A DNA stretch of 64,000 nt from Alphaproteobacteria bacterium (GTDB lineage: Bacteria > Pseudomonadota > Alphaproteobacteria > Micavibrionales > Micavibrionaceae): positions 1 to 64,000 of the forward strand of contig JAGRHC010000001.1 in the NCBI GenBank assembly GCA_020445145.1. The letters run 5' to 3'. Below the pieces are notes generated by a model. The model had not been told where the DNA came from. It did not search any database and worked only from the letters and a program-made list of their open reading frames with translations. Made by a program: the position numbers and the translations under genes. Positions 8,720-32,264 of the stretch are shown here, piece after piece. Every line of letters starts with the position of its first letter. The stretch's first letter is position 1.

Positions 8720-9246
8720 TTTTTGGTTATATTGCGCGGATTCCAGAAAATCACTTCCTTGCCTGCGGCTTTTTCTTCGGAGCGTTTGTAGACGTAGATG
8801 CCCAGCACAGAGAGGCCGACGGCCCAGATGGCGCTTAAGTTTCCGAGCGCCGCCATGACAACGCCTGCCTTGTCTGTCTCAAAGACGATCACATAGGCGA
8901 CACCGAACATCTGGGCGGCCCAAGTGAGCGCCATCAAATAGCCGAAGGTCGGGCGCATGCGCCTCACATAGGCGTCATTTGAGGCGACTTCGGCGCGCAG
9001 TGACTGGTTGATCTCGGACAAAGCGGCTTTCCCCTCCTCTATTTCTATTTCCGCCATTTTTTCGGCGTGGCGGTTGGCTTCGGCGAGTTGCTCGGCAGAT
9101 ATGCCGCCGCTTTTGATCTCTTCCTTCACCTTTTCCAGCGCTCCGGCGGCGGTTTTGGTGACCGGGGTATCAATCGCGCCGAGCGCTTCCCCTAGTATCG
9201 ATAACAGCACCGGCAAGCCGATCTGTGAGAGTATATTTGTAAGCAT
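8716..9246 (-). CDS. GTA-type three-TM holin-like protein
   Basis: This 176-aa protein has an N-terminal hydrophobic segment (residues 5-22) and a charged helical middle (KVKEEIKSGGISAEQLAEANRHAEKMAEIEIEEGK). Two further membrane helices lie near residues 105-150. The layout and the VRRMRPTFGYLMALTWAAQM segment match the Holin-of-3TMs-for-gene-transfer-release family, described in gene transfer agents and phages. It would permeabilise the inner membrane to release particles. It is the last gene of the viral block, and its end overlaps the convergent host gene by 4 bp. Confidence 0.75.
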   Translation of the reverse strand: MLTNILSQIGLPVLLSILGEALGAIDTPVTKTAAGALEKVKEEIKSGGISAEQLAEANRHAEKMAEIEIEEGKAALSEINQSLRAEVASNDAYVRRMRPTFGYLMALTWAAQMFGVAYVIVFETDKAGVVMAALGNLSAIWAVGLSVLGIYVYKRSEEKAAGKEVIFWNPRNITKN

Positions 9247-9782: not shown

Positions 9783-10268
9783 CTAGCTTTCGTTTTTTAC
9801 GTTATAAAAAACATGCCGTCCGATTTCAGCACTCGCGGCTTCGCCCTTGGCCCAGTAGGGAAGCGTCCCGCGGGCGTGGTAGTGGGTTGCGCCGCCCGTG
9901 CTGTCTTTTAGAACGCCTGCGATCGCGCGGTTGGCCACGCGCATGGCGGTTGCGAAATACAGATCCGATGCATCGACGGCGAGCAGTTTTCTGAAATTGG
10001 GGTCTGCGCGGTTCCAGCAGCTAAATTGATATGGCTTCTGGCAAACCTGAATGATGTTGTTTCCCCACCAGTAGCCGCCCTTCTGGTTGGCGCGTTTGAC
10101 GCGGTTCAGGACCACACAGGCGACGGCCTCCATGCCGGGTACGCCCTCGCCGCGTGCCTCGCCCCAGATTGTGCGGGCAAAAACATCGGCGGTCATATCG
10201 TTATAGAATTTTTCTGCAGCCGGATTGGTTTGGCCGCCGGGGATGGCGGTCAAAGTTGGTTTTTTCAT
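9783..10268 (-). CDS. SleB-type cell wall hydrolase (probable endolysin)
   Basis: This 161-aa protein matches the Hydrolase_2 (SleB/CwlJ) family: ARTIWGEARGEGVPGMEAVACVVLNRV near residues 31-57 with the catalytic glutamate in WGEARGE, and later GGATHYHA. Such enzymes cleave peptidoglycan glycan strands. It has no signal peptide, so exit would depend on a holin, which fits its place between holin-like genes. The ATG follows TAGGAG. The family is also used by host genes for cell wall work; here the context supports lysis. Confidence 0.88.
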   Translation of the reverse strand: MKKPTLTAIPGGQTNPAAEKFYNDMTADVFARTIWGEARGEGVPGMEAVACVVLNRVKRANQKGGYWWGNNIIQVCQKPYQFSCWNRADPNFRKLLAVDASDLYFATAMRVANRAIAGVLKDSTGGATHYHARGTLPYWAKGEAASAEIGRHVFYNVKNES

Positions 10269-11547: not shown

Positions 11548-13032
11548 TCAGTGCTCATCCAGCACCCCTTTGGCGGTATGCGGCGCGGCGCCGGTCATCC
11601 AGCTTTGCTTGCCCATACCGTGGATTCGCGTGAGGCGGTCGGGGTGCCCGGACAGCGCTCCTGCCACCGCGTCCAGCGCATCATCGTGGACTTTGGTTGA
11701 GCCGGGGCGCCATTCACGCATCTCTCGCAAGAACGGCGTGCGGCAGATGTCTTTGTGCACGTACAGGCGGCCTGCAGCCATCAGGGTCTCGAAGCCCTCG
11801 ATAATCCGGACGGCCTTGTTCTTGGTGCTTGGCTCTTCACGCACCGAGGCGCTTGATTTCGCCTTCGTCAGTGCATTGCGGAGCATGCCCGGCAGGAATA
11901 TCCCGATGCCATTATTTTCAACGCTGATGGAGGGCAAATACATTTCTTTCGCGATCCCGGCGACGATTTCACATTGCTGCTCGGCTTCCGGTTTGTCGCT
12001 GGCGGGATCAATCCTGATATATTCGAGATGATGGAGATAGTAGTTCCCGGCTTCGTCTCCGAACACGATGGCAAGGACACTATCATCGCCCTTTGCACTG
12101 CCAAAGGCCGGGTCCCAGCGGCATGACGCCCCGGCCATGCGGTTGGGGCCGATATAGAGCGCATCCAGTTCGCGGGCATATTCCAGCTCGGCGTCATAGA
12201 AGCGCAAGAGATCAGGGTTTAACCTGCTTTCCATGATGTTCACGGGTTTGAGCATCATCTGGCTTTCGAATTTGCCGGGACCGGTTTCCGCGCGCAGGCG
12301 TTCGATGTCTTCCAGCGTGTAGCGCTCAGGCCATGCGCTTTGGTTTTTCTCATTGAGGATCGGGATTTGCAGGCGGGAGAAGCCGCTTAGAAATTCCCGC
12401 TCCTCACCGATTTCCGTGCGCGGCGTGTCGGCGTAGATCGAGTAGTAATCGTGCGGCGTGCCGATATAAAGCTGCGCGCCGCCTGCGACAAGGACATAGG
12501 CCATCTCGCCGAGGACCGTGCGCAGGTTTTCGCGCTTTTCGGCAGAGTCGCAGGTGGCCGGGACTTCGACGTCATCGCAAATGACGATATCGGCGCGGGA
12601 GCCTGTGATGTTGCCCCCTACGCCTCTTGCCAGCATCGAGGGGTCGCGCGATTCCAGCGCCCTGGATACGGTAAAGCGGTCGGAGGCCCACTGATCCGCC
12701 TTTTCCGGCTTGAGATGTGCGGTCAGCGGGTGGCGCTCGATGATGCGTTTGACGTTTCTCACCATCTTGCCCGCCAGCGCGTTGTCTGCGGCCAGCACAA
12801 GGATACGCAGGTCGGGATCGCGGTAGAGCAGCCAGCTTGCGTACAGGCCGACGATTGTACTTTTGCCTGCGCTACGGAAGGCCATCAGGAGGCTTCTGGT
12901 CTCCCCGCTTTCACGTCCTGCCTCCAGCCATCCGGCGATTTTTATATGGAGCATGGGCGTCGTCCGTCCCTGCATGCGATTCCACAGGACAAGAAATGTC
13001 CTGAACCCCACTACGGGGATTTGGTTGGTCAT
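11548..13032 (-). CDS. Phage terminase large subunit
   Basis: This 494-aa protein is the packaging motor ATPase and nuclease. The Walker A-like loop FRSAGKST is at residues 52-59 and the Walker B IVICDD near 149-154. The C-terminal nuclease domain shows an acidic pattern with RWDPAFGSAKGDDS near 308-321 and a late HDDALDAVAGAL. The overall pattern fits T7-like terminases. The gene is full length with AAGGATCG before the ATG. Its place after the tail genes and before the lysis group matches gene 19 in T7 order. All catalytic regions look intact. Confidence 0.92.
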   Translation of the reverse strand: MTNQIPVVGFRTFLVLWNRMQGRTTPMLHIKIAGWLEAGRESGETRSLLMAFRSAGKSTIVGLYASWLLYRDPDLRILVLAADNALAGKMVRNVKRIIERHPLTAHLKPEKADQWASDRFTVSRALESRDPSMLARGVGGNITGSRADIVICDDVEVPATCDSAEKRENLRTVLGEMAYVLVAGGAQLYIGTPHDYYSIYADTPRTEIGEEREFLSGFSRLQIPILNEKNQSAWPERYTLEDIERLRAETGPGKFESQMMLKPVNIMESRLNPDLLRFYDAELEYARELDALYIGPNRMAGASCRWDPAFGSAKGDDSVLAIVFGDEAGNYYLHHLEYIRIDPASDKPEAEQQCEIVAGIAKEMYLPSISVENNGIGIFLPGMLRNALTKAKSSASVREEPSTKNKAVRIIEGFETLMAAGRLYVHKDICRTPFLREMREWRPGSTKVHDDALDAVAGALSGHPDRLTRIHGMGKQSWMTGAAPHTAKGVLDEH

Positions 13033-14185: not shown

Positions 14186-15574
14186 TTAAACGTCGTGATC
14201 GAATAGTTTCTGATCGGCGACCAGTCCGCCGGATGCGAGCAAAGAGTCGACCGTGACGCCGGTGAAGTTGGTCAGGACGGATACGACCGGTATCCAGCCA
14301 TCGCCTGTTCCCTCCTCGCTGATTTTGATGTCGGTGCGGAATTCGTCGCGGAAGTAGAATTTCACGAACTCATTGATATCGCTGGTTGCTGCGTCATAGC
14401 CGCTCAGGAGGTCGCTGATGTTGATCGTGTCGTCGCTAAAGCTGAAGTCCTCGATCCGGTGTGCCTTGCCTTCGGGGATGCCGTCAAAGGCGAAGGTGTC
14501 ATGGTCCGCGCCGCCGATCATCACGCTCTGGCCATAAGACCGTGCGACCAGCAGGTCATCGCCGTTTTCGCCGTTCAGCACATCCCGCCCGTCGCCGCCA
14601 TAAAGCTGGTCATCGCCATCGCCGCCTTTGAGCTTATCGTTTGAGGGCAGCGCGCTGCCGCCGGGATCGTCCGCGAAGAGCATGTCATTTCCGCCGCGGC
14701 CCTTCAGTTCGTCGCTGCCGCCCTGACCATAGAGGATGTCGTTGCCTTCGCCGCCATCCATGTAGTCGTTCTGGCCGCCGCCATACAGGACGTCATTACC
14801 GTCTGCGCCGAAGACCACATCAAAGCCATCGCCTGCGAAAATCATATCGTTGCCGGTGCCGCCATGCACATAGTCTGCCCCGCCGCCTGAACGAATAATG
14901 TCGTCGCCTTCGTTCCCATAGATGTAGTCGAGGCCATCGCCGGAAATGATATAGTCATCGCCACCATTTCCCCACATTATGTTGTCACCGAAAAGATCGA
15001 ACAAAATATCGTGGCCCCCGCCGCCAACGAGTAAATCATCCCCTAGCCCGCCGGATAAGATGTCGTCGCCTGGATCGCCATCTACCCTGTCGGTTCCGTC
15101 TCCGCCGAAAACATAGTCATTGCCACTGCCGCCAAAGACGTCATCGTTACCGTCATTTCCAAAGAGCATATCGTTGCCTTCGCTGGCGCTGACATTGTCA
15201 TTGCCTTCCCCGCCATAGACTTCGTTCTGGCCGTCGACGGCGTAGATAATGTCGTTCCCGAGATAGCCGTCGATATAGTCATTGCGGCCATCGGTGGTCC
15301 AGACATTGTCTGCGGACGAGAGTATATAAACGGCTTCGTGCGCGTAGTCCTGACCGGTGGCGAAAGCGTAATCCATGATGCTGTCGTTTTGGGTGTTGTA
15401 TTGTAGCGTGCGCTGTATTTTGCTCAGGTCGCCGGTGTCTTCCGTATCGAATTCACGGGTGGTGATGATTCCATCTGCCGTCCAGAAAAGCTGGGTGTAG
15501 GTGCCGTCCTCATTCTGGCGTACGAAATAGTCGCCAAGACCAGAGTTAAAGCCGAATTGTGAATAAGTTGGCAT
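14186..15574 (-). CDS. RTX-repeat calcium-binding protein with T1SS-like C terminus
   Basis: This 462-aa protein has a short N-terminal domain (1-95) and then at least 15 glycine/aspartate nonapeptides of the hemolysin type (GGxGxDxxx; residues about 100-335), for example GGEGNDNVS, GGSGNDYVF and GGTGNDMIF. Calcium is expected to fold these into a beta roll. The C-terminal segment (IEDFSFSDDTINISDLLSGY near residue 385) resembles the export signal region of type I-secreted RTX proteins. It has no Sec signal. It sits inside the viral tail region, where it replaces nothing in the T7 order, so it is likely cargo. The type I exporter at 45-50 kb could secrete it. Confidence 0.85.
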   Translation of the reverse strand: MPTYSQFGFNSGLGDYFVRQNEDGTYTQLFWTADGIITTREFDTEDTGDLSKIQRTLQYNTQNDSIMDYAFATGQDYAHEAVYILSSADNVWTTDGRNDYIDGYLGNDIIYAVDGQNEVYGGEGNDNVSASEGNDMLFGNDGNDDVFGGSGNDYVFGGDGTDRVDGDPGDDILSGGLGDDLLVGGGGHDILFDLFGDNIMWGNGGDDYIISGDGLDYIYGNEGDDIIRSGGGADYVHGGTGNDMIFAGDGFDVVFGADGNDVLYGGGQNDYMDGGEGNDILYGQGGSDELKGRGGNDMLFADDPGGSALPSNDKLKGGDGDDQLYGGDGRDVLNGENGDDLLVARSYGQSVMIGGADHDTFAFDGIPEGKAHRIEDFSFSDDTINISDLLSGYDAATSDINEFVKFYFRDEFRTDIKISEEGTGDGWIPVVSVLTNFTGVTVDSLLASGGLVADQKLFDHDV

Positions 15575-17110: not shown

Positions 17111-19135
17111 TTACAAATACTTTCCCACAATCCACCACTGGCCGCCGTCGCTCACCACCGTGATCGCGCTGTACTGAGAAGAAAGGCTCTGCGCCGAATT
17201 ATCCGGCCCCGTTGCACCCTGCTCGGTAACTGTAATCGCGTTGGCGGAGACGTCGGTTTTCTTGATGGTGATGGTGCGCCCGACGGCTTCCGCGGCGTTG
17301 GCGGGGGGGAGCCTTGCGGTCAGTGCGCCGCTGAAGCTGGAGAGCAAATACGTGTCCACGGCCATGTCGATGTCGTAGGTGCCTGTGCCATCGTAATACC
17401 GCGTGTTGCCCGGCGCGCGGTTGGAGGAGAGGACAAACCATTCCGCGCCGTTGGAGAGCATCAGCACAAAGTCGTTCTCCGCGCCGAGATAGTAGCTGTG
17501 GCCGTCGGGGCCGTTGCCTGTATCCTCTGTGATGGTAATCACGTTGGCCGAGGAGTCGGTTTTCTTGACCGCCATCATCACGCCAGTCGCATCGGCGGCG
17601 TTGGGCAACTCGACCGTGAGCGCGCCGCCGAAGCTGGAGACCAGATGGATGGAGTGCGAGGTGTCGAGGCTGACGCTGCCGCTGGTGTCGATAAATTCGG
17701 TATCGTAGCGTTGCAGCGTCGCGTTCAAATCATTCACGGTCGTTTTTTGCAGGGTGTTTTTGTAAGGGTATCCTGCGTTATAGGCCGTGTACTCGCCGCC
17801 GGAAAGATCGTAAATGGCTGCGCCGTCGCTGGCCGAGAGCAGGTTATAGATCGCGGTTTCGATCGATCCTGCCTCCAGTTTGATATTGGGCACGAGGTTG
17901 TCGCTCTCTGCATAGGGATTGAGCAGCAGCGTCTTTTCCGCATTCGCGCCGATGATGAAACCCCCTTGCGCGGTGCCCTTCACGTTGGCTTCGCAGTCGA
18001 TGAAGGCGTTGTTGTATTTGCCATCCTCGATATAGAACCCTGCGCCCGAGATATCCGCGCCTAGAGAATAAGCGCGGCAGGCATAGAATTTGTTGGCGTT
18101 TGGCGTGTCCCCTGCTCCGCTTAAGGTCAGATGGAAGCCGTTCACGGCGGGCTGCTCGACCAGCACGCGGGCGAAATTGTTCCAGTAGCACGGCTTGTTC
18201 GTATCATTATACCCGTCAAGCTGGACGCCTGTGTTGGGCGCGACAATTGTGACATCGCGCACGGAAGACTGCACCACGGGGCGGCTTGCGCCATAAAGCT
18301 TGATCCCGACATCGCCGCCCTCAATGCGCAAATCCGAGATACGCACGTAATCCTCGATGATCTCGATGACGTTGAAGGTGTTGGCGTTTGCTTTCAGGAC
18401 GGATTTTGCGCCTGCGCCGATCAGGCTCTGGCGGGCTGTGAGCTGGATTGTGCCTGTCACCAGATATTCGCCTTCGGGGATAAATACCGCATTTTTAGCG
18501 CTGAGCGCATTGATAATCGCCGTCGTATCGTCGGTCAGGCCGTCCCCCGCTGCGCCGAAATCCTTTACTGAAATCAGGTCCGAGAATTTATCATGGCTGG
18601 TACGCGTGGCTGCGCCTGTGCCGGCGGGGGTAAAGTCCGGCGCGGCCATCGAGCCTTCGAGGCTTACGGCCACCGGATCGCCATTGCCGTCGAAGCCCAG
18701 CGCCATATTCGCCCGCACGGCTCTGTCCGGCAGGGTCACTTCGCCCGGCGTTTCGTAATCTGCGTATTTGAGCATGGTGTCGTTTTCGCGCTCGACCTGC
18801 TGGAGGGCGGCGATCATGTAGTCGAGTTCGTTGTTGATCGCTCTTGCGCTGAAATCCCCGCCTTCGAGGAAATCCGTCACCCGCTCGACGGGGAGTTCGC
18901 GGGCGAGCGTGATGATCGTACCACTGGCGGGGGCATCATCAAATGTCACATCTCCGCCCAGCGTTTCCCCTGCTCCGTCGATGGTAAAGCCGCTGACAAT
19001 TTGTGCGCCGTCGATATACACTGCCAGATCCTCGCTTGCGAAAATCGGGAACGGATAGGCGAAAACGGTCTGTGTCCCGTTTGCATTATAACGCACGATC
19101 GGCGTCACGGCGGGCATCTTGATATGCTCGGTCAT
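17111..19135 (-). CDS. Tailspike: T7-type tail fibre N terminus plus pectate-lyase-like beta helix
   Basis: This 674-aa protein starts MTEHIKMPAVTPIVRYNANG. Residues 10-120 match the T7 tail fibre N-terminal attachment domain (QTVFAYPFPIFASEDLAVYIDG; ALQQVERENDTML). Residues about 190-450 begin VKDFGAAGDGLTDDTTAI, the classic entry of the pectate-lyase-3/right-handed beta-helix fold found in tailspikes and surface depolymerases. Two C-terminal beta modules follow (about 520-600 and 605-674), the last duplicated at 15741. It would bind or cut a host surface polysaccharide. The ATG at 19135 has AAAGGAG; the apparent 37-codon extension lies in a dispersed repeat. Confidence 0.88.
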   Translation of the reverse strand: MTEHIKMPAVTPIVRYNANGTQTVFAYPFPIFASEDLAVYIDGAQIVSGFTIDGAGETLGGDVTFDDAPASGTIITLARELPVERVTDFLEGGDFSARAINNELDYMIAALQQVERENDTMLKYADYETPGEVTLPDRAVRANMALGFDGNGDPVAVSLEGSMAAPDFTPAGTGAATRTSHDKFSDLISVKDFGAAGDGLTDDTTAIINALSAKNAVFIPEGEYLVTGTIQLTARQSLIGAGAKSVLKANANTFNVIEIIEDYVRISDLRIEGGDVGIKLYGASRPVVQSSVRDVTIVAPNTGVQLDGYNDTNKPCYWNNFARVLVEQPAVNGFHLTLSGAGDTPNANKFYACRAYSLGADISGAGFYIEDGKYNNAFIDCEANVKGTAQGGFIIGANAEKTLLLNPYAESDNLVPNIKLEAGSIETAIYNLLSASDGAAIYDLSGGEYTAYNAGYPYKNTLQKTTVNDLNATLQRYDTEFIDTSGSVSLDTSHSIHLVSSFGGALTVELPNAADATGVMMAVKKTDSSANVITITEDTGNGPDGHSYYLGAENDFVLMLSNGAEWFVLSSNRAPGNTRYYDGTGTYDIDMAVDTYLLSSFSGALTARLPPANAAEAVGRTITIKKTDVSANAITVTEQGATGPDNSAQSLSSQYSAITVVSDGGQWWIVGKYL

Positions 19136-19161
19136 GGTGGTTACTCCTTTGATTTGATCGC

Positions 19162-19245
19162 TGTCATTCCGAACGTGCGAAGCGCGGAGGAAACTTCCAG
19201 ACTTACGCAGTTGGCGAAGATCCCTCACATACGTTCGGGATGACA
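19162..19245 (+). repeat. Dispersed palindromic repeat, copy 2
   Basis: This 84-bp element has the same inverted ends as copy 1 (TGTCATTCCGAACGTG at left, ACGTTCGGGATGACA at right) and the shared internal GCGCGGAGGAA and AGATCCCTCACAT. It lies in the gap between the gp14-like gene and the tailspike gene, in the same orientation as copy 1. Confidence 0.8.
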
Positions 19246-19283
19246 TTTATACATTATGATTATTTATCCAGACGGCCTTCTCG

Positions 19284-19899: not shown

Positions 19900-20358
19900 T
19901 TAATTAACGTGTTTCTTCTTAGGAGAACTTTTCTTTTTTATTTTTTTTGGTTTCTCTGAGTTTTTCTGCACAAAAATTTGGCCGGCAATTGTCCATTCAT
20001 TTTCAATTTTTATTTTTACTTTTAAAAAGTCTTCTTTTGTTATTGGAAATGGAGAGAATATCAGAGAAATATGAGTCTCATTGGTTTCAATATTTTCATG
20101 GAATTTGTTTTTTTGAAATTCAACAACAACATCACCGTCTGCAATAATATCATCGCCATATTCAATCTTTAGAGGCAAAATCTGTTTTTCCCGCTCGGCA
20201 GAAACTATATTTACCATAATATAAAATTTTGGGAGGAATGCCGGAATTTCCGGCACAATTATATCATTATGATAAACTCCTACGAGTGTTATCTTGCCGT
20301 TTTTTTCTTCGCGGATATCGTCACAAAATTGTGCGTATCCAAAAGTTTTTACTGTCAT
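19900..20358 (-). CDS. Third gene of the RelE-like/Xre operon, hypothetical
   Basis: This 152-aa protein begins MTVKTFGYAQFCDDIREEKN. The FCDDIR...GKITLVGVYHNDI opening resembles a small family of uncharacterised bacterial proteins (DUF6941-like; not verified). The C terminus is a lysine-rich tail (EKPKKIKKKSSPKKK). Its start overlaps the stop of the Xre gene by 4 bp (ATGA), so it is a true third member of that operon. It is strongly AT-rich compared with the tail genes on both sides, a sign of separate acquisition. Confidence 0.6.
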   Translation of the reverse strand: MTVKTFGYAQFCDDIREEKNGKITLVGVYHNDIIVPEIPAFLPKFYIMVNIVSAEREKQILPLKIEYGDDIIADGDVVVEFQKNKFHENIETNETHISLIFSPFPITKEDFLKVKIKIENEWTIAGQIFVQKNSEKPKKIKKKSSPKKKHVN

Positions 20359-20870
20359 GTTTTTAACCCAAGGACGTTAAACAATGTGTTGGGATCAATA
20401 TCTAGAACTTCGCAAATACGTGCTGCTGTGAGCAAGCTTGGCATTTCTTTTCCTGATTCATATCTGGATATTTGATATTGCTGAATACCAGCCTGTTGCG
20501 CCAATTCATCCTGTGAAAATCCCTTCATAAGTCTTATGCTTCGAAGAGTTTCGTTTTGCTTTTCGTCCTTTATAAAAGCCCCCAGTTCACGACGCCCTTG
20601 ACGGATAGAATCTTCATATCCCTCTGAGTAAAGTTCCTGCATAAAATCTTCAAACGGTGTGCTTCGAGGATGATTTTTATACAAATGATCTTCCGGCCAT
20701 ATTCCCTTGATCTCAAATACGTTTTCATGTTCTTCGCCATCGCTTGATACAAGACGAGCATAACTGGGAGACGTTTCCGCTTCACGCCCGTGGAAGTTTT
20801 GAAAGCCCGAGGCAGTCGTATCGACGGATAATTTCTGCGATAAATTCTTTGTCTTCCTCATAATTAACAT
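20355..20870 (-). CDS. Xre-type HTH regulator, probable antitoxin
   Basis: This 171-aa protein has a C-terminal Cro/CI-type helix-turn-helix (about residues 108-168: IRLMKGFSQDELAQQAGIQQ, then ISRYESGKEMPSL). The N-terminal part is of a kind often seen where a regulator contacts its toxin. The start ATG (20870, or the next ATG at 20861) lies inside the end of the RelE-like gene, with about 80 bp overlap. It is expected to neutralise the toxin and repress the operon. This toxin-first order is that of HigBA-like systems. Confidence 0.75.
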   Translation of the reverse strand: MLIMRKTKNLSQKLSVDTTASGFQNFHGREAETSPSYARLVSSDGEEHENVFEIKGIWPEDHLYKNHPRSTPFEDFMQELYSEGYEDSIRQGRRELGAFIKDEKQNETLRSIRLMKGFSQDELAQQAGIQQYQISRYESGKEMPSLLTAARICEVLDIDPNTLFNVLGLKT

Positions 20871-21201
20871 CCCTTTCCATCAAGCCTAGAATATGGATTG
20901 TATTTCTCTGATAATCCGGCGCGTAAATCACACGGTATCTCAGGTTAAACTTTGCTTTTTTTGTAAAACCAAATATTTTTAGCCGCCACATATTCCGCAG
21001 CATTTTATTCTGAATACTCCAAATTGCATCTACATTAAAATCTTTGCACTCAAACCCCGGATAAGTTAGATCATCTATGCTCACACAATTTTTGCTCAAT
21101 TCCTCAATAACAGCAAACAGACGCCCTGCCTGATTTTCATCTGTTTTAAACAGATTGCGTATTTCCTCCTTTGCTTCCTCAACAATGTCTACACGAAACA
21201 T
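20782..21201 (-). CDS. RelE/ParE/HigB-like toxin
   Basis: This 139-aa protein, starting MFRVDIVEEAKEEIRNLFKT, has the RelE/ParE superfamily layout: an N-terminal helical pair, then RLKIFGFTKKAKFNLRYRVI and NTIHILGLMERDVNY in the beta sheet near the active surface. It is likely an mRNA interferase or a gyrase toxin; which one cannot be told. The ATG at 21201 is preceded by GAAAG; the 23-codon extension to 21270 would enter the tail gene. It is the first gene of a three-gene AT-rich operon inserted between tail genes. Confidence 0.7.
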   Translation of the reverse strand: MFRVDIVEEAKEEIRNLFKTDENQAGRLFAVIEELSKNCVSIDDLTYPGFECKDFNVDAIWSIQNKMLRNMWRLKIFGFTKKAKFNLRYRVIYAPDYQRNTIHILGLMERDVNYEEDKEFIAEIIRRYDCLGLSKLPRA

Positions 21202-21266
21202 TATATTACTTTCAATATAAATGAGCACGGTAAAAATATTATGAACGATGTTTTCTCTCCGTTCAA

Positions 21267-23165
21267 TCAATCATTCACCTTCACTTCCGTGATGACGGCG
21301 AGGAGTTCGAAGCCGAGCGGGGCGTCCTGTTCGATGCGCCAGAGGGGGGATGTGCCGTCTCTTTGCCAGCCTAAAGACCGCACCGTCACATCGCCGCTGA
21401 CTTGCGGGGCTGGCGTGTCGAGAATATCGTCTTCGCCGAGCTGTTTGAGGGGGATGTCTTTCAGCCCCTGCCCGACATCAATGCGCAGGGCGGCGGTGTC
21501 CTTGACCCGGAATATGCCGCGCACGAGGCGCAGGCGGTTGCCTGATCCGACCGCTCCAATCTCGTTGGGCGGGAGGGGTTCGATCCTGTGGGTATAGGAG
21601 AGGCCGATTTCAACGCTGCTGGCAGCTTCGGCGAGTGTCACCTGCCCGCTTGTGACCGTCTGTTCCTCCAGCACCACGCCGTCGGCGACGATTGAGACGC
21701 TTTGGCCTTCGAGGTGATCGAGGCCGGACCAGACTGTTGCCGGCGTTCCTATTTCACCGGATAAAGCGGCGTCGAGGTGCAGGGTTTCATCCATCAATTC
21801 GATAAAATAGCTGCCGTCCCGAAGCATCAGCAAATAGACCTCTTCGCCGACCACGCAGACCGATCTGGCCTGTCCGTTTGTTTCATGGAGGGTCCAGGCC
21901 TGTACGCTTTCCGAGCGAAAGACAGTCAGCGTTGCAAATGTCCCGTCCTCGCGCACGACGTACAGGAGGCGGTTGTTCTGGTCGTAGTCCTGATCGGCTG
22001 GCCTTTCAACAATATGATGCGAGAGCAGCGCGAGGTCGTTCGAGGTATAGGCTTGCTCGAGGTCGGTATAGAGGAACTCGAAAATCTCGCGGCCCGATCT
22101 TGCGGCATAGAGCGTTGCGCCGTCCACGTTCACGGGCGGGATATAGCGGTCGATGCGCGAGCCGGTTCTGGTTTGCCGTCTGATCTGCACTTCGGCGGGG
22201 GTTAGCGGTTCACCGGTGACCATCCATTCCGCGCCACTTGTGAAGACCTGCAGGTGGCGGGAGGAGAAAATGCCGCGGATGGCGTTGACCTGATCGGAGA
22301 GGATTGCAAACTCGATGGCTTCATCGTCCAGCCCTTCGCCGAGATCAAAGTTGAACAAATCGCCGCTTTTTGAAAACCATAGACGGTTGGGCAGGTCTCG
22401 GCTGCCGCCGATGACGAGGCGGTCCTGATGGAAGGCGGCGGTCACGGGGTATCCGCGCGCCGGACTAAACGCTTGTTCGAACCAGTCGATGGTGGCGTCG
22501 GTATTATCCAAGTCCTCATTCAGGGTGACGGTGACCACTGTGGCCGAGTCGTAATCGGTGATCAGGGCTTCGACGCCGTTCACGCGCAAGTAGGTGTTTT
22601 CGTGGTCTGCGGTGAAGACATCTTCGGAGGCTGTCAGCGTGATGCTGCCCGTTATTCCACTCGGGGTCAGTGTCACTTCGGCATCCACGAATTTATAATA
22701 GGGCTGGTAAACGATTCCGGCATCGGTGAAAAAGCTCCAGTCATTGAGGCTCCATGTGCCGCCTGTGCTTCTGACCAGTTTTTTTGGCGGGACGTCCGGG
22801 TGGGTCAGGAGGAGCGTATCGGCACTCTGAGTCCACGCGAGCTGCCGGATCTGGCTTTCAGTCCATGGCGCGCTTAGCGTCTCCAGTTTTACGCCGCCGG
22901 CATAGATGTCAATCTGGCTGTTTGTGACAACCAGCAGCGCCGTTTGCTCGGTATTAAACTCGAAGGCGATCAGCTTGCCGTCGCCTGCGGCAGTGTCGAT
23001 ATAACCAAGGCCAAAACGCCTTTTCACACCGCCTGTCGGGTTGATAAAGACATTGCGCAAGACCAGCGCACCGTTGTCATAGGCCCGCAAATCCCCTCTT
23101 CCCAGCAATTCGCTCGACACTTCACCGGCGGTGAAGGTCGTTTTCATCTGTGTGATGCGTGTCAT
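21267..23165 (-). CDS. Tail tubular protein B-like (T7 gp12-type nozzle)
   Basis: This 632-aa protein is beta-rich and begins MTRITQMKTTFTAGEVSSEL. The N-terminal pattern (FTAGEVSSELLGR.DL..Y..G...L.N.....GGVKRR.G) is characteristic of podovirus tail nozzle proteins, and later regions carry beta-propeller-like strands (QDRLVIGGSRDLPNRLWFSK). It would close the tail tube and dock the tailspikes. It is full length with a good ribosome site, and is separated from tail tubular A by the 23260-24062 module. Confidence 0.82.
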   Translation of the reverse strand: MTRITQMKTTFTAGEVSSELLGRGDLRAYDNGALVLRNVFINPTGGVKRRFGLGYIDTAAGDGKLIAFEFNTEQTALLVVTNSQIDIYAGGVKLETLSAPWTESQIRQLAWTQSADTLLLTHPDVPPKKLVRSTGGTWSLNDWSFFTDAGIVYQPYYKFVDAEVTLTPSGITGSITLTASEDVFTADHENTYLRVNGVEALITDYDSATVVTVTLNEDLDNTDATIDWFEQAFSPARGYPVTAAFHQDRLVIGGSRDLPNRLWFSKSGDLFNFDLGEGLDDEAIEFAILSDQVNAIRGIFSSRHLQVFTSGAEWMVTGEPLTPAEVQIRRQTRTGSRIDRYIPPVNVDGATLYAARSGREIFEFLYTDLEQAYTSNDLALLSHHIVERPADQDYDQNNRLLYVVREDGTFATLTVFRSESVQAWTLHETNGQARSVCVVGEEVYLLMLRDGSYFIELMDETLHLDAALSGEIGTPATVWSGLDHLEGQSVSIVADGVVLEEQTVTSGQVTLAEAASSVEIGLSYTHRIEPLPPNEIGAVGSGNRLRLVRGIFRVKDTAALRIDVGQGLKDIPLKQLGEDDILDTPAPQVSGDVTVRSLGWQRDGTSPLWRIEQDAPLGFELLAVITEVKVND

Positions 23166-24110: not shown

Positions 24111-24680
24111 TTATCCCCTTACGTCAATCAAAGTGAAATCTTCGATCCGTCCCGGGGAGTCTTGCTGGGCGTCGATCTGGCGGGCGCGGGCGAATTCTTT
24201 TTCGGCCAGGGTGTAGAGCATTTCGGCGCGGCTGGTGTTTTCGGTGACGGGGAGGCAGAATTCGGCGGCCAGTTTTGTGATGAGGATTTGATCGAAATAT
24301 GGCGGAAAGGCCTCTTCTTCGGGGCGGTAAATATAGGTCAGGATGACGTCCGGGGCATTGGTATGCAAGGCGCCGCCGGCGATGCGGTAGTTCAGGCCGC
24401 GCCCTCTTGTGCCGGAGCCAGCGGACAGTGCGCGCAGGAAATCTGCGGGGAGTTGGTAGGCGTAATCGTAATCGGCGACCGGACCGCTTGAGAGTTGTGT
24501 CAGCTCTACCTGCCCTGTGGCGAAGCTCCATGCGTAAGCCGAGAGGAGCGCGTCGCGGATCTGGTCGAACAGCGCGTTCGCGATTTCGGATTCAGCAGTG
24601 CCGTCATCAAAACTTGTGATGGGGGCCGCGCCGAGGCGGATAAGGGCGCGGGAACATAGGGCGACATCTGATAACGCCAT
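24111..24680 (-). CDS. Tail tubular protein A-like (T7 gp11-type)
   Basis: This 189-aa protein begins MALSDVALCSRALIRLGAAP, the typical opening of podovirus gatekeeper/tail tubular A proteins, followed by SEIANALFDQIRDALLSAYAWSFA. The C terminus is helical. It would join the portal to the nozzle. The ATG has AAAGGAG at ideal spacing. The order capsid, tail tubular A, tail tubular B is that of T7. Confidence 0.85.
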   Translation of the reverse strand: MALSDVALCSRALIRLGAAPITSFDDGTAESEIANALFDQIRDALLSAYAWSFATGQVELTQLSSGPVADYDYAYQLPADFLRALSAGSGTRGRGLNYRIAGGALHTNAPDVILTYIYRPEEEAFPPYFDQILITKLAAEFCLPVTENTSRAEMLYTLAEKEFARARQIDAQQDSPGRIEDFTLIDVRG

Positions 24681-25512: not shown

Positions 25513-26346
25513 TTAGTCCGGTGTCTCGTCGCAGTTGATGACGACGATTCCATCCTCGTCGATCAACCCTGCGCCCTGGCTCATCATGTTGTTGACGAAG
25601 TGGGCGGCGCGGTCGCCGTGCCATGTGATGTCGGTTTTGACTTCGCTGGCGGCGGCATGGCCGAGGGAGGTGCGGTGGTAGTAGAAACACGAGCGAATAT
25701 CGCTGCCGTCTACAGGAAGGCCGGAATGCGGGATGAAGATCGTTCCGAGGAACATCTTGGCCTGTGTGATGGACGCGAAGGGCAAGGATTCCTGACCGAT
25801 GTAATCGGCGTTCACGAATTCCTCGATGCCGAGAAGCTCGCTCCACTGTTTCCAGCCGACGATGCAAAAGCGCTGGCCATCGTCCGGGACATCGTTTTCG
25901 CCGAAGGTCTCGAAGGCGCTCAGGATTTTGTCCTTGGTCATGCCGGTGTTGCCGTCGGCGATCACATTTGTCGATGCGCCTGAGAGGGCGCTGATGATGA
26001 GATCATCGGTTTTGCGGCCCAAGGCCCCTGCCCCGGCGGCGGCGATGACTTGCCTTTCGTCGATGTTGGTTTTCAGTTCGTCCAGACGGTCGACCCAGTC
26101 GCCGGCGTAGAAGTCCTGTAGTGTGACCTCGACATTGCTATGGTCAAGATTCATGACCGGGACCATGCCGTGGGTGGATTTGGTGCTGGCGGTGCCGGTG
26201 CCGACTTTCTGGAAGACTGCGGTGGAACCGTTAACGCCTGTGGTGTTACGCACTGTGGACCGTAGTTTTGAGCCAAGGCGCTGGTAGGCCAGATGCACTT
26301 CTTGTTCGAACTGCTTGATGAAGGCCTGATCTATGGATGTAGACAT
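25513..26346 (-). CDS. Major capsid protein (podovirus type)
   Basis: This 277-aa protein begins MSTSIDQAFIKQFEQEVHLA. It has features of small HK97-fold capsid proteins of podoviruses: an N-terminal arm, an E-loop-like basic region (LGSKLRSTVRNT), a central DWVDRLDELKTNIDERQVI helix, and a C-terminal beta part. It follows the scaffold gene as expected. It appears to have its own promoter at 26524-26552. No truncation is seen. Confidence 0.78.
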   Translation of the reverse strand: MSTSIDQAFIKQFEQEVHLAYQRLGSKLRSTVRNTTGVNGSTAVFQKVGTGTASTKSTHGMVPVMNLDHSNVEVTLQDFYAGDWVDRLDELKTNIDERQVIAAAGAGALGRKTDDLIISALSGASTNVIADGNTGMTKDKILSAFETFGENDVPDDGQRFCIVGWKQWSELLGIEEFVNADYIGQESLPFASITQAKMFLGTIFIPHSGLPVDGSDIRSCFYYHRTSLGHAAASEVKTDITWHGDRAAHFVNNMMSQGAGLIDEDGIVVINCDETPD

Positions 26347-26523: not shown

Positions 26524-26552
26524 TAATTAGGAATTTTTTCTTAAATTGTCAA
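26524..26552 (-). promoter_or_regulatory. Sigma-70-like promoter upstream of the capsid gene
   Basis: On the minus strand TTGACA (26552-26547) and TAATTA (26529-26524) are 17 bp apart, about 180 bp upstream of the capsid ATG. The remaining 26347-26686 gap is AT-rich and shows no gene. Confidence 0.5.
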
Positions 26553-26686: not shown

Positions 26687-27085
26687 ATGATTGATAAGCT
26701 TTTCCCTTCCCTGAGAAACGCTCAGGATGAAATCGAAACTGAAGACGATGCCCCATCCCGTCGCAACTATCCGCGCCGGAGCGGTGATGCTTGTGTGACG
26801 ATGTTAAACGGGAAAATATATCCTGTCGAGAACTGGAGCCTTGGCGGCGCGCTGGTCAGCGCGGATGACCGCTTGTTCGGTGTTAATCAGGATATTGATA
26901 TCACGATGAAGTTCAAGCTGCGCGGTGAAGTCATGGATGTGGTTCATAAGGGCAGAATCATCCGCAAAGGAACGAACAAGATCGCCCTGCAATTTGCGCC
27001 GCTCACGAAAAAGATCCAGACCGCATTCCAGCAAGTCGTGGATGACTACGTGGCGCAACGTTTTGCCGATTCCCAGACTGTCTAG
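26687..27085 (+). CDS. PilZ domain protein (c-di-GMP binding)
   Basis: This 132-aa protein carries both parts of the PilZ ligand motif: RRNYPRR near residues 24-30 and NWSLGGALV near 49-57. A beta barrel and a C-terminal helix follow. It is predicted to bind cyclic di-GMP in the cytoplasm. It is transcribed opposite to the virion genes, between scaffold-side and capsid genes, with its own promoter, so it is cargo and not structural. Just after the stop is a run of 14 C. Confidence 0.85.
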   Translation: MIDKLFPSLRNAQDEIETEDDAPSRRNYPRRSGDACVTMLNGKIYPVENWSLGGALVSADDRLFGVNQDIDITMKFKLRGEVMDVVHKGRIIRKGTNKIALQFAPLTKKIQTAFQQVVDDYVAQRFADSQTV

Positions 27086-27798: not shown

Positions 27799-28440
27799 TT
27801 ATTTGCCGTAGAGGCTCTGGAATCCTTGCGTCACTTTTGCAACGAAGGTCGGGTCGCGTTCTTTCCAGTATTTGGGGTCGCGCATCATGGCGGCGAGCGC
27901 TTTTTCATCGGCTCCGCCCGGACTTTGTCCAGCGTCATGATGCAGGGACGGTTCCTCGCCTTTCATCATGCGGTAGAGGGCGAGGACACCTTCGTAGGAA
28001 CTGGCGAGGTTGTCCAGCACTTCGGCGGGAAGATTCTGGTTGCCAAAAGCGAGGAGTTGCCTTGAGACTTCCTTCCATTTTTCAGGGCTGCCGAAATGGG
28101 CGATGAGCTTTTCAACTTCGCGGTCGGCCTGAAATTCGGCGGCGAGCTCGGCGATCATCGGAACCATTTTTTCGGCGGCGAGATTGTAGACTTCCTGCGC
28201 CTGATCCTGTGTAAAGCCAAGCGCGTGCAGGCGAGCGTTGATTTCAGGGTCAGGCTGGAACATGCCGTGGGCGCAGTCGATGCAGTACTCTTCCGGGCTT
28301 TTGGGCGCGGGCGTGTTTTGCGAGAGGCGCTTTTCCAATTCGCGGTAGGATTGCAGAAGGGCTTCTGCGCGCAGATTGCCTGTTTCCGGGTCTTTGAATT
28401 TTTCCGGGATGTCGGTGGTTAAGAGGTTTTCTTCGGTCAT
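27799..28440 (-). CDS. Capsid assembly scaffolding-like protein
   Basis: This 213-aa acidic, mainly helical protein begins MTEENLLTTDIPEKFKDPET. It carries KFKDPETGNLRAEALLQSYRELEKRL, a motif common to podovirus scaffold proteins, and ends in a basic helix (PTFVAKVTQGFQSLYGK) as expected for capsid contact. It lies directly after the portal gene, as gene 9 does in T7. Confidence 0.75.
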   Translation of the reverse strand: MTEENLLTTDIPEKFKDPETGNLRAEALLQSYRELEKRLSQNTPAPKSPEEYCIDCAHGMFQPDPEINARLHALGFTQDQAQEVYNLAAEKMVPMIAELAAEFQADREVEKLIAHFGSPEKWKEVSRQLLAFGNQNLPAEVLDNLASSYEGVLALYRMMKGEEPSLHHDAGQSPGGADEKALAAMMRDPKYWKERDPTFVAKVTQGFQSLYGK

Positions 28441-28542: not shown

Positions 28543-30066
28543 TCACTCTTCACTCTGATGTAAAATCAGGTCGTGGGGGACGGCCAGCGATTCGCCGAGA
28601 TATCTGGCGGCGGCGGGAAGGTCGATCGCCTGCATGGCCTGCGGACCCATGGCCAGAACGGAGGTGATCCAGCTAAGCGTGGTCTGGACATTGCGCTGAC
28701 CTTGCGCGCGGGCGAGCGGGGAGCGGTAGTCCACCGCGACTAATCTTCCGTCGAGCGCGATATCAGGCACCTCGCCGCGGCGCCTTAGTATGGCGAAGGC
28801 GCGCTTGATGAGGGGTGTCAAAAGTTCTGATTGCAGGCGTCCGTATGTTGCGCCGAGGAGAAGCGAGACTTCTGCCGAGCGTTCGAGCACTTCGGTGGCG
28901 GTCATGCGCGGGGAGGCTACGGGCGCGAGTTTGTCGGCCATCAGGGCATGGCGGATGCGGGATTGCAGGCTGTCGAGGACGAGCTGCGAGACGTCGAAGC
29001 GGCCCGGCATTTCGAGGGGCTGGAGGCCCTTGGAGCCGATGGCTTTGGGGATGATGACGCCCGGCAAAAGCTCTATGTTGGCCGGGTTGAGGACGCCGTC
29101 ATCATCGGCCTGCCAGATGCCGGTCACGGCGATCGAAGCGTTTTTGAGGATGAGCTCGACGACTTTATTCGCGGTTTTGATGTCCGGGAGCGCCTTCATC
29201 ACCGGGGAGCGTCCATAGATTTCGCCGGGCGATTTGGCCCAGCGGAAGGCGATGACCGGGGACTGCGCGAAGGTGCCGGTCTGCAGGATGTGCGGCGGGC
29301 CGTTTTCAAGCAGAAGCGCGGTGTAGCTGTGGGCGAAGCCCTCGGGGAGAATGGATTCCAGCACTTTGAAGCGTGTTTGGGGATCTCTGGCGGCTTGTCT
29401 TGCGGCCTGGGCTGGGATTTCCGGCTGGGCGTAGCGGCTCATGATCTGCTCGAGGGTCAGGGACAGAATACGGTGCGCGCCGTCCAGCAGGCCGTCCTCC
29501 CCCTCCTCCAGCACGATTTGCGCGAGGGGGGCGGCGGTGAATTTGAAGGCGGAAAAACCGCCGGGGGTGGCTTCCTCAAAATAGAGGCTTCCGGTGCCGC
29601 CGACGACGAGATCGAGATAACACTGGTGGATTTCGACGGCGAAGTTGGAGCGGTCAAAATGCGCCTGAATGGTGCGGGAGGCTTGTTCCAGCGCGGGGGC
29701 GAGGGCTGCGGCCTGCTGTGGTGACAAGTCGGGGCCGGGTTTTAGGCCGAACCACTGGGACCATGTCGGGGTGAGCTGGCCGAGCAGGCTGGCGGCGAGT
29801 TGGTCGGCGGCGTCGAGGGCGGTGGCGTCATAAATCTTTTTGCCGCGCGGGCTGCCGGGTATGAAGCTACCGGCGAAATCGCCGCGCTGCGGGAGGGCGT
29901 AGTCGTAGCAGTCCTGCCACAGGCTTTCCCAGTTTGAGCGGCGGGAAAGCGCGGTTTCGTGGCGCTGGAGGATTTTTTCGGCGTGCGCGCGTTGTCCTTG
30001 CGATTCCTCGATTTGCGGGCCGATATTGACCGGAACCTTTGGTTTTTTGCGGGTTTTGGTTGTCAT
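28543..30066 (-). CDS. Podovirus head-tail connector (portal) protein
   Basis: This 507-aa protein matches the T7-type portal family. Family landmarks include HETALSRRSNWESLWQDCYDYALPQ (residues 34-58), GKKIYDATALDAADQLAASL near 75-94, GTGSLYFEE near 156-164 and a C-terminal helical barrel region. It forms the ring through which DNA enters the head. It follows an 86-aa protein by 2 bases and precedes the scaffold gene. The frame is intact. Confidence 0.9.
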   Translation of the reverse strand: MTTKTRKKPKVPVNIGPQIEESQGQRAHAEKILQRHETALSRRSNWESLWQDCYDYALPQRGDFAGSFIPGSPRGKKIYDATALDAADQLAASLLGQLTPTWSQWFGLKPGPDLSPQQAAALAPALEQASRTIQAHFDRSNFAVEIHQCYLDLVVGGTGSLYFEEATPGGFSAFKFTAAPLAQIVLEEGEDGLLDGAHRILSLTLEQIMSRYAQPEIPAQAARQAARDPQTRFKVLESILPEGFAHSYTALLLENGPPHILQTGTFAQSPVIAFRWAKSPGEIYGRSPVMKALPDIKTANKVVELILKNASIAVTGIWQADDDGVLNPANIELLPGVIIPKAIGSKGLQPLEMPGRFDVSQLVLDSLQSRIRHALMADKLAPVASPRMTATEVLERSAEVSLLLGATYGRLQSELLTPLIKRAFAILRRRGEVPDIALDGRLVAVDYRSPLARAQGQRNVQTTLSWITSVLAMGPQAMQAIDLPAAARYLGESLAVPHDLILHQSEE

Positions 30067-30068
30067 GG

Positions 30069-30329
30069 TTATTCTCCCAGAAGGGTTTTACGGGTGGTGT
30101 TGCCGGTGGCGAGGTCCAGCAGACCGCGGAAGCTGGTCTGGACAGTGCCAAGGCGGCTGCGGGCGCTGGAGAGCAGGTTGGTTTTTCTGACCTCTGCCGC
30201 TGTAGTTTGTGCGCTGTCGGCGGACGCGTCTGTTGTACTTGTGTCCGTCGAAGCGGTCGTTGTTGTGGTTTGCGGCACGTAGGCAACTTGCGTGCTCGGG
30301 GCCTTGGGCCTTGAGGCGAGACTTCCCAT
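30069..30329 (-). CDS. Small Thr/Ser-rich protein preceding the portal gene
   Basis: This 86-aa protein begins MGSLASRPKAPSTQVAYVPQ, has a low-complexity Thr/Ser/Ala linker (residues 22-46) and a basic C terminus (RSRLGTVQTSFRGLLDLATG). The ATG has AAGGAGTAA upstream. It is spaced 2 bases from the portal start and is clearly in the virion operon. The role is unknown; the second residue being Gly makes N-terminal modification conceivable but unproven. Confidence 0.6.
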   Translation of the reverse strand: MGSLASRPKAPSTQVAYVPQTTTTTASTDTSTTDASADSAQTTAAEVRKTNLLSSARSRLGTVQTSFRGLLDLATGNTTRKTLLGE

Positions 30330-30333
30330 GATA

Positions 30334-30750
30334 TTACTCCTTATTGTCTATTGGATGGGGATGAACCAAAATTGCGTCACGCTGAAGTCGGCAGTAGAGC
30401 TGCCATGGCGTGATGATGAACCTGTTTTGTAGTCCGATGAGACGCTTGGCGATCTCGACGCAGCTTATGAAGGCCGCCGGGGCGGGCTTTGTGTTTGCGA
30501 TGACGCGGGCCGGGAGGGCTTCATGGCCCTGCGATTTGAGCCAGTGGATCAGGTCAAATTCATCTGCAAGTTCTTGAACTTTCAACTCAATGTGGCTGGC
30601 GAGCGGGTCAAGGGTGACCCATCGTGACCCGTCATGCACCACCACGAAACAGTGCTTGAAGCCGGCCTTCAAGAAGAATAATCGTTTGAGGTCGGTTTGG
30701 CCTGTGAAGACGACCCATGCTTTTTGCGCGTCGCTTGTCTTGTTGTTCAT
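30334..30750 (-). CDS. Hypothetical protein, second gene of the viral operon
   Basis: This 138-aa protein has an alpha/beta pattern with FFLKAGFKHCFVVVHDGSRW and VTLDPLASHIELKV, then a helical C terminus. The Cys/His/Asp arrangement hints at a papain or NlpC-like fold, but I cannot confirm it. It is 12 bp after the first gene and 4 bp before the next, so all are in one operon. Confidence 0.6.
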   Translation of the reverse strand: MNNKTSDAQKAWVVFTGQTDLKRLFFLKAGFKHCFVVVHDGSRWVTLDPLASHIELKVQELADEFDLIHWLKSQGHEALPARVIANTKPAPAAFISCVEIAKRLIGLQNRFIITPWQLYCRLQRDAILVHPHPIDNKE

Positions 30751-30762
30751 GACGTTCTCTCC

Positions 30763-31173
30763 CTACTCTGCTGCGATGCCGTAGATGTGGCTGGCCCAAC
30801 TCGAGGAACGGACGATTCCCTTTTTTTGCAGCGGGGGTTCGAGACGCTCCATCGCCTCCCTCCAGAGGCGGTAAGCGTGCATTTCCTTGATGCGGCGAGG
30901 GTCGGGCGGCATGTTCCGGCGGCCATAGTGGCGGAGCACCAGAAGGTGATCCATCTTCAAAACCCGGTTGCGGTGGAGGCGGTCGAGGGTTTTCAAGATG
31001 TCTAGCGGCTCGCACGGTCTTGGCATCCTCCCCATTCCGGCCACGAAGCGCGCGCCGTCATTGCGAGCGCCTTGCGCTGCGATAAACCAGAACCATGCCT
31101 CCTCCACGTTATCAAAAGGAACAAGGTGGCCCGCGTTTTGTATGTTGTCGCCTGGAGATGTCTTGTGCGTCAT
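30763..31173 (-). CDS. Hypothetical protein, first gene of the viral operon
   Basis: This 136-aa basic protein begins MTHKTSPGDNIQNAGHLVPF. The ATG follows AAGGAAA. The C-terminal half is arginine-rich and helical (RPCEPLDILKTLDRLHRNRV). No domain is recognised. It is the first gene downstream of the LexA-type box and could be regulatory or DNA-binding, but that is only a guess from charge and position. Confidence 0.6.
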   Translation of the reverse strand: MTHKTSPGDNIQNAGHLVPFDNVEEAWFWFIAAQGARNDGARFVAGMGRMPRPCEPLDILKTLDRLHRNRVLKMDHLLVLRHYGRRNMPPDPRRIKEMHAYRLWREAMERLEPPLQKKGIVRSSSWASHIYGIAAE

Positions 31174-31225
31174 CGCGATTTCCTTTTCCTGTTATTGTGG
31201 ATTTTAGCGGGCGCAAGATACATTT

Positions 31226-31240
31226 GTTCCCCTTATGTTC
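31226..31240. promoter_or_regulatory. LexA-type (SOS) box GTTC-N7-GTTC
   Basis: GTTCCCCTTATGTTC fits the alphaproteobacterial LexA operator exactly (two GTTC half sites, 7-bp spacer; GAAC-N7-GAAC on the other strand). It lies 53 bp upstream of the first viral gene and 95 bp upstream of the HTH-PyrE start. One or two such matches are expected by chance in 64 kb on both strands, so location in a 161-bp divergent promoter region is the main support. Confidence 0.6.
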
Positions 31241-31334
31241 TCGTTTTTGATATAGTTTCACTGGGATGTCAAGAAAAAATTATGATTTTTTTCCTATTTA
31301 CCTTTCGATTGAAAGATGGGACTATCATCCTATC

Positions 31335-32264
31335 ATGTTTACACATATGCAAATTTGGCGGGGGATTGACCGCCTTGCTGCTTCGCACGGGCATTCTCCG
31401 TCGGGGTTGGCCAAGTTGGCCGGGCTGGACCCGACCTCGTTCAATAAAAGCAAACGGCATAGCCCGGAAGGCAAGCCGCGCTGGCCTTCCACTGAGAGTT
31501 TGTCCAAGGTTCTGGCGGTGACCGGCGCAACGATGTCCGAGTTTATCGCGTTGATCGGGGCGAATGATGATACCCCGGTGGCACAGACTTTTTCGAAAGA
31601 CGAGATTGCTCGCACGGCGGCGGAGGCTTTGATTTCGACCGAGTCTGTTTTGTTTAATGCGTCGAAGCCTTTTACACTGAAGTCCGGGAAGAAAAGCCCG
31701 GTTTATATTGATTGCCGGCGCCTGATTTCGTTTGTTGCCGAGCGCAAAGCGCTGATGGACGCAGGAGCGCAGCTTTTGTGCGCCGAGGTTGGGCCGAATA
31801 ATATTGATTTGCTGGCGGGCGGTGAGACGGCGGGGATTCCCTATAGTGCGTTTCTGGCCGAGCGGCTGGAGAAGCCTATGATCTATGTGCGCAAACAGCC
31901 CAAAGGTTACGGGCGGATGGCGCAGATCGAAGGTGTTTTGCCGGAAACCAATGCCAAAGGCCATGCGCCGCGCGTTGTGATGATTGAAGACTTACAGACT
32001 GATGGTGGGAGCAAGCAGATCTTTATTGATGCTTTGCGCGCTGCCGGGGCTGAGGTTAAGCATACGTTTGTGGTGTTCCATTACGGTATTTTTCCGGCGA
32101 GCACGGCCAATATGAAGGCTTTGGGCGTGAAGCTTCATGCGCTTGCGACGTGGTGGGATGTTCTGGCGGTGGCGAAGGCGAAGAATTATTTCGATGCGGC
32201 CACGCTGGAGTCCGTGGAGGCTTTCCTGAATGATCCTGCGAAGTGGCAGGAAAAGTACGACTAG
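31335..32264 (+). CDS. pyrE: Phage-repressor-type HTH fused to orotate phosphoribosyltransferase
   Basis: This single 309-aa frame holds two parts. Residues 1-75 (MFTHMQIWRGIDRLAASHGH, then SPSGLAKLAGLDPTSFNKSK) match the N-terminal HTH of alphaproteobacterial S24/CI-like repressors. Residues 87-309 are a full OPRT: substrate segment FTLKSGKKSPVYIDCRRL (113-130), catalytic loop RKQPKGYGR (186-194) and PRPP site VVMIEDLQTDGGS (214-226). OPRT makes OMP from orotate and PRPP in pyrimidine synthesis. No S24 peptidase part remains. The ATG at 31335 gives the usual HTH start; a 23-codon extension is possible. Bacillus PurR shows that an HTH-PRT protein can be a PRPP-sensing regulator. Confidence 0.85.
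   Translation: MFTHMQIWRGIDRLAASHGHSPSGLAKLAGLDPTSFNKSKRHSPEGKPRWPSTESLSKVLAVTGATMSEFIALIGANDDTPVAQTFSKDEIARTAAEALISTESVLFNASKPFTLKSGKKSPVYIDCRRLISFVAERKALMDAGAQLLCAEVGPNNIDLLAGGETAGIPYSAFLAERLEKPMIYVRKQPKGYGRMAQIEGVLPETNAKGHAPRVVMIEDLQTDGGSKQIFIDALRAAGAEVKHTFVVFHYGIFPASTANMKALGVKLHALATWWDVLAVAKAKNYFDAATLESVEAFLNDPAKWQEKYD

Follow-up and report, generated by a model that had tools for sequence, protein, structure and literature searches.

At positions 31,335 to 32,264 (+ strand) of the window, by which we mean the whole 64,000-nucleotide stretch analysed, one unbroken frame encodes 309 residues plus a stop, in which a repressor-type helix-turn-helix (HTH) domain is joined in frame to a complete orotate phosphoribosyltransferase (OPRT, PyrE). 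The gene faces a phage-derived cluster that is most simply read as a domesticated gene transfer agent (GTA), and conserved predicted operators lie between the two and within the cluster. Taking the evidence as a whole, we consider it probable that the protein is a bifunctional RogA-PyrE that represses both the GTA-like cluster and its own gene, with the OPRT replacing the S24 domain of the ancestral repressor as the dimer module. The in-frame fusion had been proposed in the initial annotation of this DNA, and is borne out by the open frame and by matches of the OPRT half to NF001729 and PDB 4ohc.

The RogA-type HTH occupies residues 1–76 (31,335–31,562, +), followed by a flexible linker of approximately residues 77–86 (31,563–31,592, +) and the OPRT domain of residues 87–309 (31,593–32,261, +). 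The ORF finder gave an upstream ATG at 31,266; the relatives favour the start at 31,335. The first 76 residues are 58–83% identical to the N-termini of separate HTH-S24 genes of 203–234 aa (60–83% in the comparison that upheld the initial assignment to the S24-type repressor class), which are found in Micavibrionales, Rhizobium, Sinorhizobium, Hellea and others across the class. Because the Pfam match to this half is sub-threshold (HTH_26, E = 0.08), the HTH assignment rests on these relatives and on an AlphaFold model of the fusion (mean pLDDT 87.7), which consists of a five-helix HTH (pLDDT ~90), a disordered linker near residues 77–82 and an OPRT fold. The C-terminal S24-like domain is absent, with the OPRT in its place, so the protein is not a full RogA, although it would recognise DNA as one does.

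Residues 85–307 pass the curated cutoff of the NCBIfam PyrE model NF001729 (303.6 bits, cutoff 245). The closest protein in the PDB is the B. cenocepacia OPRT (4ohc; sequence E = 3e-69, ~51% identity), with which the AlphaFold model aligns at a TM-score of 0.91 by target. The catalytic loop YVRKQPKGYGR and the PRPP motif VVMIEDLQTDGGS are both present, with active-site residues R186, K187 and K190 in the loop and E218, D219, T222, D223, G224 and S226 in the PRPP motif, in agreement with the earlier description of an intact-looking OPRT. Own-genome searches, which the initial annotation had suggested for pyrE, found neither a second pyrE nor a further copy of the RogA-type HTH in the 2.26 Mb genome; pyrF is present. 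As the cell's only PyrE, the OPRT domain should make OMP from orotate and PRPP.

Of 37 family genomes examined (Micavibrionaceae relatives, the named ones being Micavibrio MAGs), 10 carry the complete fusion, which also occurs at 21 loci of named MAGs and on three IMG/VR viral contigs. Approximately 25 genomes remain after duplicate removal, with the fusion always at the same locus. In each fused genome of the ten-genome set a single match spans both domains, and is thus the sole pyrE and the sole HTH of its kind. A class-wide sample of 240 genomes contained no fusion outside the family, and the plasmid collection had none either. An assembly or frameshift error, which the initial annotation had named as a possible source of the fusion, is ruled out by the open frame together with its recurrence in the family genomes and MAG loci. 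One MAG (OFTM66) carries two differing fused loci (L091 and L092) and is probably a mixed bin.

Both the HTH and the OPRT halves are under purifying selection, while the linker is free. In a comparison of 23 fused genes the HTH has a pN/pS of 0.23, the OPRT one of 0.29 and the linker, with a mean identity of 16%, one of 0.80, and dN/dS in the two closest pairs is roughly 0.01–0.06 in both domains. Residues D32, T34, F36, N37, K38, S39, K40 and R41 of the HTH are invariant. DNA-binding residues are conserved in all relatives, against the possibility raised earlier that the helices lack them, and the active-site motifs of the OPRT are kept in most fused forms.

In unfused relatives the HTH forms the start of the 203–234 aa HTH-S24 gene, which lies upstream of pyrE-nadK, at a distance of usually no more than a few hundred bases. 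Intermediates are found before pyrE as HTH-only genes of 72–104 aa (in G003, G008, G011, G020 and G036), and degenerate or truncated S24 domains also occur repeatedly among the relatives. The ancestral order reconstructed from these arrangements is an HTH-S24 repressor gene followed by pyrE, from which one clade lost the S24 half and had the HTH joined to PyrE. The locus records stepwise stages of domain replacement within a repressor. Some relatives (those with HTH-only genes) lost S24 without a replacement, so the HTH can persist without an OPRT. A RogA-type HTH without S24, in a frame of ~105 aa, is also kept in 0.9-Mb genomes (G125:C5:2923-3144 and G244:C2:80506-80727).

In a tree built from genes of the cluster and its flanks (portal, scaffold, capsid, D1, nadK and purC; G031 not included), 24 of 24 fused rows fall in one clade of 27 with an SH-aLRT of 100, and G001 and L090 lie inside the main fused clade. 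The unfused members of this clade are G028/L113, with separate genes, and the HTH-only G036. These loci (L047 in G028, L113, and L043 in G036) look like reversal or replacement at the locus. The OPRT-only tree scatters G001, G031 and L090, and a single fused clade is not rejected by the AU test (p = 0.10). Repeated independent fusions are disfavoured, since the OPRT tree is compatible with one clade and the cluster tree groups G001 and L090. We prefer a single origin, after which the OPRT half was exchanged in some lineages within the fused gene. The fused protein of G001 (L040) has an altered PRPP loop, EDLQNFGHSK, in common with the unfused G008; its OPRT half seems to have been exchanged with the fusion retained, as may have happened in some other lineages.

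Caulobacter RogA (CCNA_00080) is a 213 aa protein with an HTH and an S24-like domain that represses GTA production, and RogA is present in 819 of 1,331 alphaproteobacterial genomes (PMC9632790). It binds a promoter with two GGAA-N4-TTCC repeats, and the motif occurs in the promoter fragments bound in SPR (PMC9632790). The HTH-S24 family described here is strongly suggested to be the RogA family, CCNA_00080 being matched by length, domains, distribution, motif and particle association rather than by alignment. The RogA-like character of the HTH, of a probable GTA-repressor family, and the replacement of an S24 domain next to pyrE are points beyond the initial annotation.

The region upstream of the fusion holds, from 5' to 3', a GTTC-N7-GTTC box, GTCAAG and two predicted operators. 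The box (31,226–31,240) is of the type that we take to be the alphaproteobacterial LexA (SOS) box. GTCAAG (31,268–31,273), which reads as a conserved CTTGAC on the − strand, could be the −35 element of the divergent promoter, although the distance from CTTGAC to a −10 is not canonical and none at a suitable spacing turned up. Operators O1 (31,281–31,296, TATGATTTTTTTCCTA) and O2 (31,317–31,332, TGGGACTATCATCCTA), the latter just before the start codon, are conserved inverted repeats of the type T[AG]GGA-N6-TCCTA, 36 bp apart. A third conserved site, O3 (26,528–26,543, TAGGAATTTTTTCTTA), lies between the capsid gene and a putative PilZ gene. All match the GGAA-N4-TTCC of RogA, with a core of GGA-N6-TCC and variable inner A/T.

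Of 39 regions upstream of rogA, 37 carry inverted repeats, where mononucleotide shuffles predict 0.5, and 30 carry the SOS box, where the expectation is 0.18; these upstream counts are descriptive, as TAGGA and TGGGA half-sites were both scored after inspection of the sequences, and the independent checks are O3 and the loci across the class. O3 is kept in 54 of 73 loci, some of them duplicates, against 2.7 expected, and in other alphaproteobacterial families repeats stand at −51 and −15 of the gene, again 36 bp apart. The same spacing is found in 10 of 10 fused genomes of the upstream set, and O1, O2, O3 and the LexA box are conserved in fused and unfused relatives alike. The operator pattern has a single exact match in the genome, O2; sites with one mismatch are about as frequent as expected by chance, and two of them, O1 and O3, fall in this cluster.

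These sites give substance to the earlier suggestion that the protein may regulate its own gene or the viral operon opposite: of the three conserved inverted repeats, two fall within the stretch singled out there (31,174–31,334) and one within the cluster. Because O1 and O2 coincide in part with the −35 (TTTAC) and −10 presumed for the fusion gene, the fusion should repress itself; O1 also adjoins the divergent promoter, and O3 adjoins the capsid operon. CI and LexA proteins dimerise via S24; OPRTs form homodimers whose active site is shared between the subunits (cf. the title of PDB 1oro), and the OPRT could therefore stand in for S24 as the dimer module. An OPRT homodimer would carry two HTHs, each the DNA-contacting part of a GTA repressor of RogA type, to the palindromic operators. 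On O1 and O2 the dimer would repress its own gene and the divergent D1–portal operon, and on O3, before the capsid operon, it would keep the podovirus-type cluster silent. LexA would add another lock to the divergent promoter, one that responds to DNA damage. Binding of PRPP, orotate or OMP might in turn alter repression, which would couple particle production to the pyrimidine state.

Whether the two halves influence each other separates the two strongest alternatives. To the first, a passive fusion, we give close to an even chance: the S24 half and the intervening stop were lost, the HTH represses and the PyrE works with no allosteric link, and autoregulation of pyrE is the only effect. The repeated truncation or degeneration of S24, the position of pyrE directly behind it and the flexible, unconserved linker are all in keeping with this. 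However, the joined form has been maintained through a deep clade, and G001 and L090, whose OPRT halves group elsewhere than their cluster genes, are still fused, which hints at selection for joining; a passive fusion would also leave a silencing operator in control of an essential enzyme of biosynthesis. Lack of conservation in the linker favours a loose joint; that the fusion has been retained for so long favours its being of use.

The second, that the OPRT acts as a trigger enzyme, we regard as possible while falling short of probable. PRPP, orotate or OMP would close the loop across the dimer interface and shift the HTHs, and pyrimidine starvation or excess would switch the cluster. The OPRT active site spans the dimer, as the title of PDB 1oro states, the active-site motifs survive in most fused forms, and PRPP-sensing HTH-PRT proteins such as Bacillus PurR provide a precedent; the lack of conservation in the linker speaks against a precise mechanical coupling. 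It is plausible that PRPP or orotate exerts control. More tentatively, we propose that a GTA repressor has taken on an active biosynthetic enzyme as its sensor, with PRPP or orotate setting operator binding and the pyrimidine state timing a podovirus-type GTA. If so, the pyrimidine state would decide the activation of an ancient podovirus-type GTA widespread in Alphaproteobacteria. The fusion and its operator sites suggest a regulatory connection between nucleotide metabolism and particle production. The stimuli behind RogA and GTA activation in Caulobacter remain elusive (PMC13236601). With GTA triggers poorly known, the tie between a RogA-type HTH and a named metabolic enzyme makes pyrimidine control a testable question.

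The facing cluster runs from 31,173 down to 8,716 (~22 kb, − strand except where stated), beyond which isocitrate dehydrogenase comes next, and is of podovirus type. Its first gene encodes D1 (30,763–31,173), a conserved all-helical protein of no known family: Pfam, PHROGs and NCBIfam gave no family, and neither a phage homologue nor a PDB fold match was found. An assignment of D1 as a Q21 antitermination protein was rejected, the fold match (TM 0.40, E = 6) not being significant. Throughout the class D1 opens the divergent operon beside rogA; with this very weak Q21-like match it could conceivably be an activator or antiterminator. It is followed by D2 (30,334–30,750), conserved and without an assigned function, and the small conserved D3 (30,069–30,329). 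The structural genes begin with a T7-type portal or head-tail adaptor (28,543–30,066; phrog_332, E = 1e-104), followed by a probable scaffold protein (27,799–28,440; weak phrog_3742), which lies between portal and capsid, and the major capsid protein (25,513–26,346; phrog_3437, E = 2e-72). The putative PilZ gene (26,687–27,085, +), labelled by eye, is antisense within the cluster at a conserved position with O3 before it; in G003 this gene and O3 still adjoin rogA, and portal and capsid genes were not found there.

Further along are tail tubular proteins A-like (24,111–24,680; phrog_394) and B-like (21,267–23,165; phrog_376), a tail spike or fibre (17,111–19,246; phrog_1640 and others), the terminase large subunit TerL (11,548–13,032; phrog_38, E = 3e-84), a cell wall hydrolase or endolysin (9,783–10,268; PF07486) and a GTA-type 3TM holin (8,716–9,246; PF11351, 39 bits, cutoff 24.8). 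The cluster also includes a toxin-antitoxin-like pair, a ParE-like toxin with a Cro/CI-type HTH gene (20,355–21,270), and, between spike and terminase, a gene with approximately ten RTX calcium-binding repeats (14,186–15,574).

The viral origin recognised in the initial annotation stands for this operon, with the qualification that it is an ancient domesticated cluster; a recent prophage as neighbour is ruled out by its synteny, its presence in many families and its host-correlated distances. It seems unlikely that the cluster is nonetheless a prophage, or makes some non-GTA particle such as a killing particle, with the fusion as its host-domesticated repressor. The structural set is of podovirus type and fragments of the cluster appear in IMG/VR as viral contigs, as such a reading would have it. 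Against this, the cluster is syntenic in most Micavibrionales genomes and adjoins the same divergent repressor gene in ~13 other alphaproteobacterial families (L178–L193), where cluster members are mostly 52–59% identical, whereas the nearest phage portals are at most 34% identical apart from one fecal fragment at 53%. Portal distances correlate with those of host nadK and purC (rho 0.56–0.61, 0 of 499 permutations as high). TerL, capsid and the GTA-type holin are all there, and among the cluster ORFs scanned there is no integrase, polymerase or other replication gene. We read the cluster as ancient, domesticated and of podovirus type, and most simply as a putative GTA. It looks like a candidate further GTA type of podovirus kind, found beside rogA in many alphaproteobacterial families.

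The remaining explanation, a vestigial HTH on an ordinary PyrE with no DNA binding, would fit the weak Pfam recognition but is very improbable, as the HTH is the most conserved part of the protein, with its invariant D32–R41 set, and fused genomes have kept the operators next to it with no other copy of the HTH to use them.

In the literature collection searched, nothing relevant turned up on HTH-OPRT or HTH-PyrE fusions or on GTAs in Micavibrio. Regulators that combine an HTH with a PRT domain are already known, but the fusion falls far below the cutoffs of both families compared. Bacillus PurR is a PRPP-sensing HTH-PRT purine repressor with an inactive PRT. It likewise places an HTH before a PRT fold, which offers a possible mode of action, but its HTH is of another class, and purR_Bsub (TIGR01743) gives the fusion 13.7 bits (cutoff 258.7). 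The archaeal PRK02277 family also combines an HTH with an OPRT-like domain; its HTH is different, and the fusion scores 39.5 bits (cutoff 115). GfcR of haloarchaea is an archaeal HTH-OPRT-like regulator. PyrE itself (NF001729; 4ohc) has the whole domain, loop and PRPP motif in common with the fusion, which adds an N-terminal DNA-binding domain. The S24 repressors lambda CI and LexA share the HTH half of the architecture; without S24, the fusion would have no RecA-stimulated self-cleavage.

RcGTA and BaGTA are likewise phage-derived, host-inherited particle clusters in Alphaproteobacteria. The cluster here differs from both in being of podovirus/T7 type, and the genome lacks the RcGTA marker GTA_TIM (PF13547), which was detected in the Caulobacter positive control. 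Judged by GTA_TIM and an RcGTA-like gene set, the cluster is not of RcGTA type. Its structural and packaging genes derive from a phage and have been passed down with the host, as expected of a GTA. It differs from BaGTA also in that the Sulfitobacter phages nesting with BaGTA TerL are not among the best TerL matches. Unlike Caulobacter RogA, many Micavibrionales HTH-S24 copies have the Ser, and the Lys 37 residues later, of LexA-type proteases, as well as a QAG motif, and their S24 domain may still self-cleave. The fusion itself resembles RogA in its HTH, in the two copies of a GGAA-N4-TTCC operator and in its link to phage-derived particle genes. It differs in having PyrE for S24, in a LexA box by its operators, and in facing a podovirus-type cluster rather than the gafYZ of an RcGTA-type cluster.
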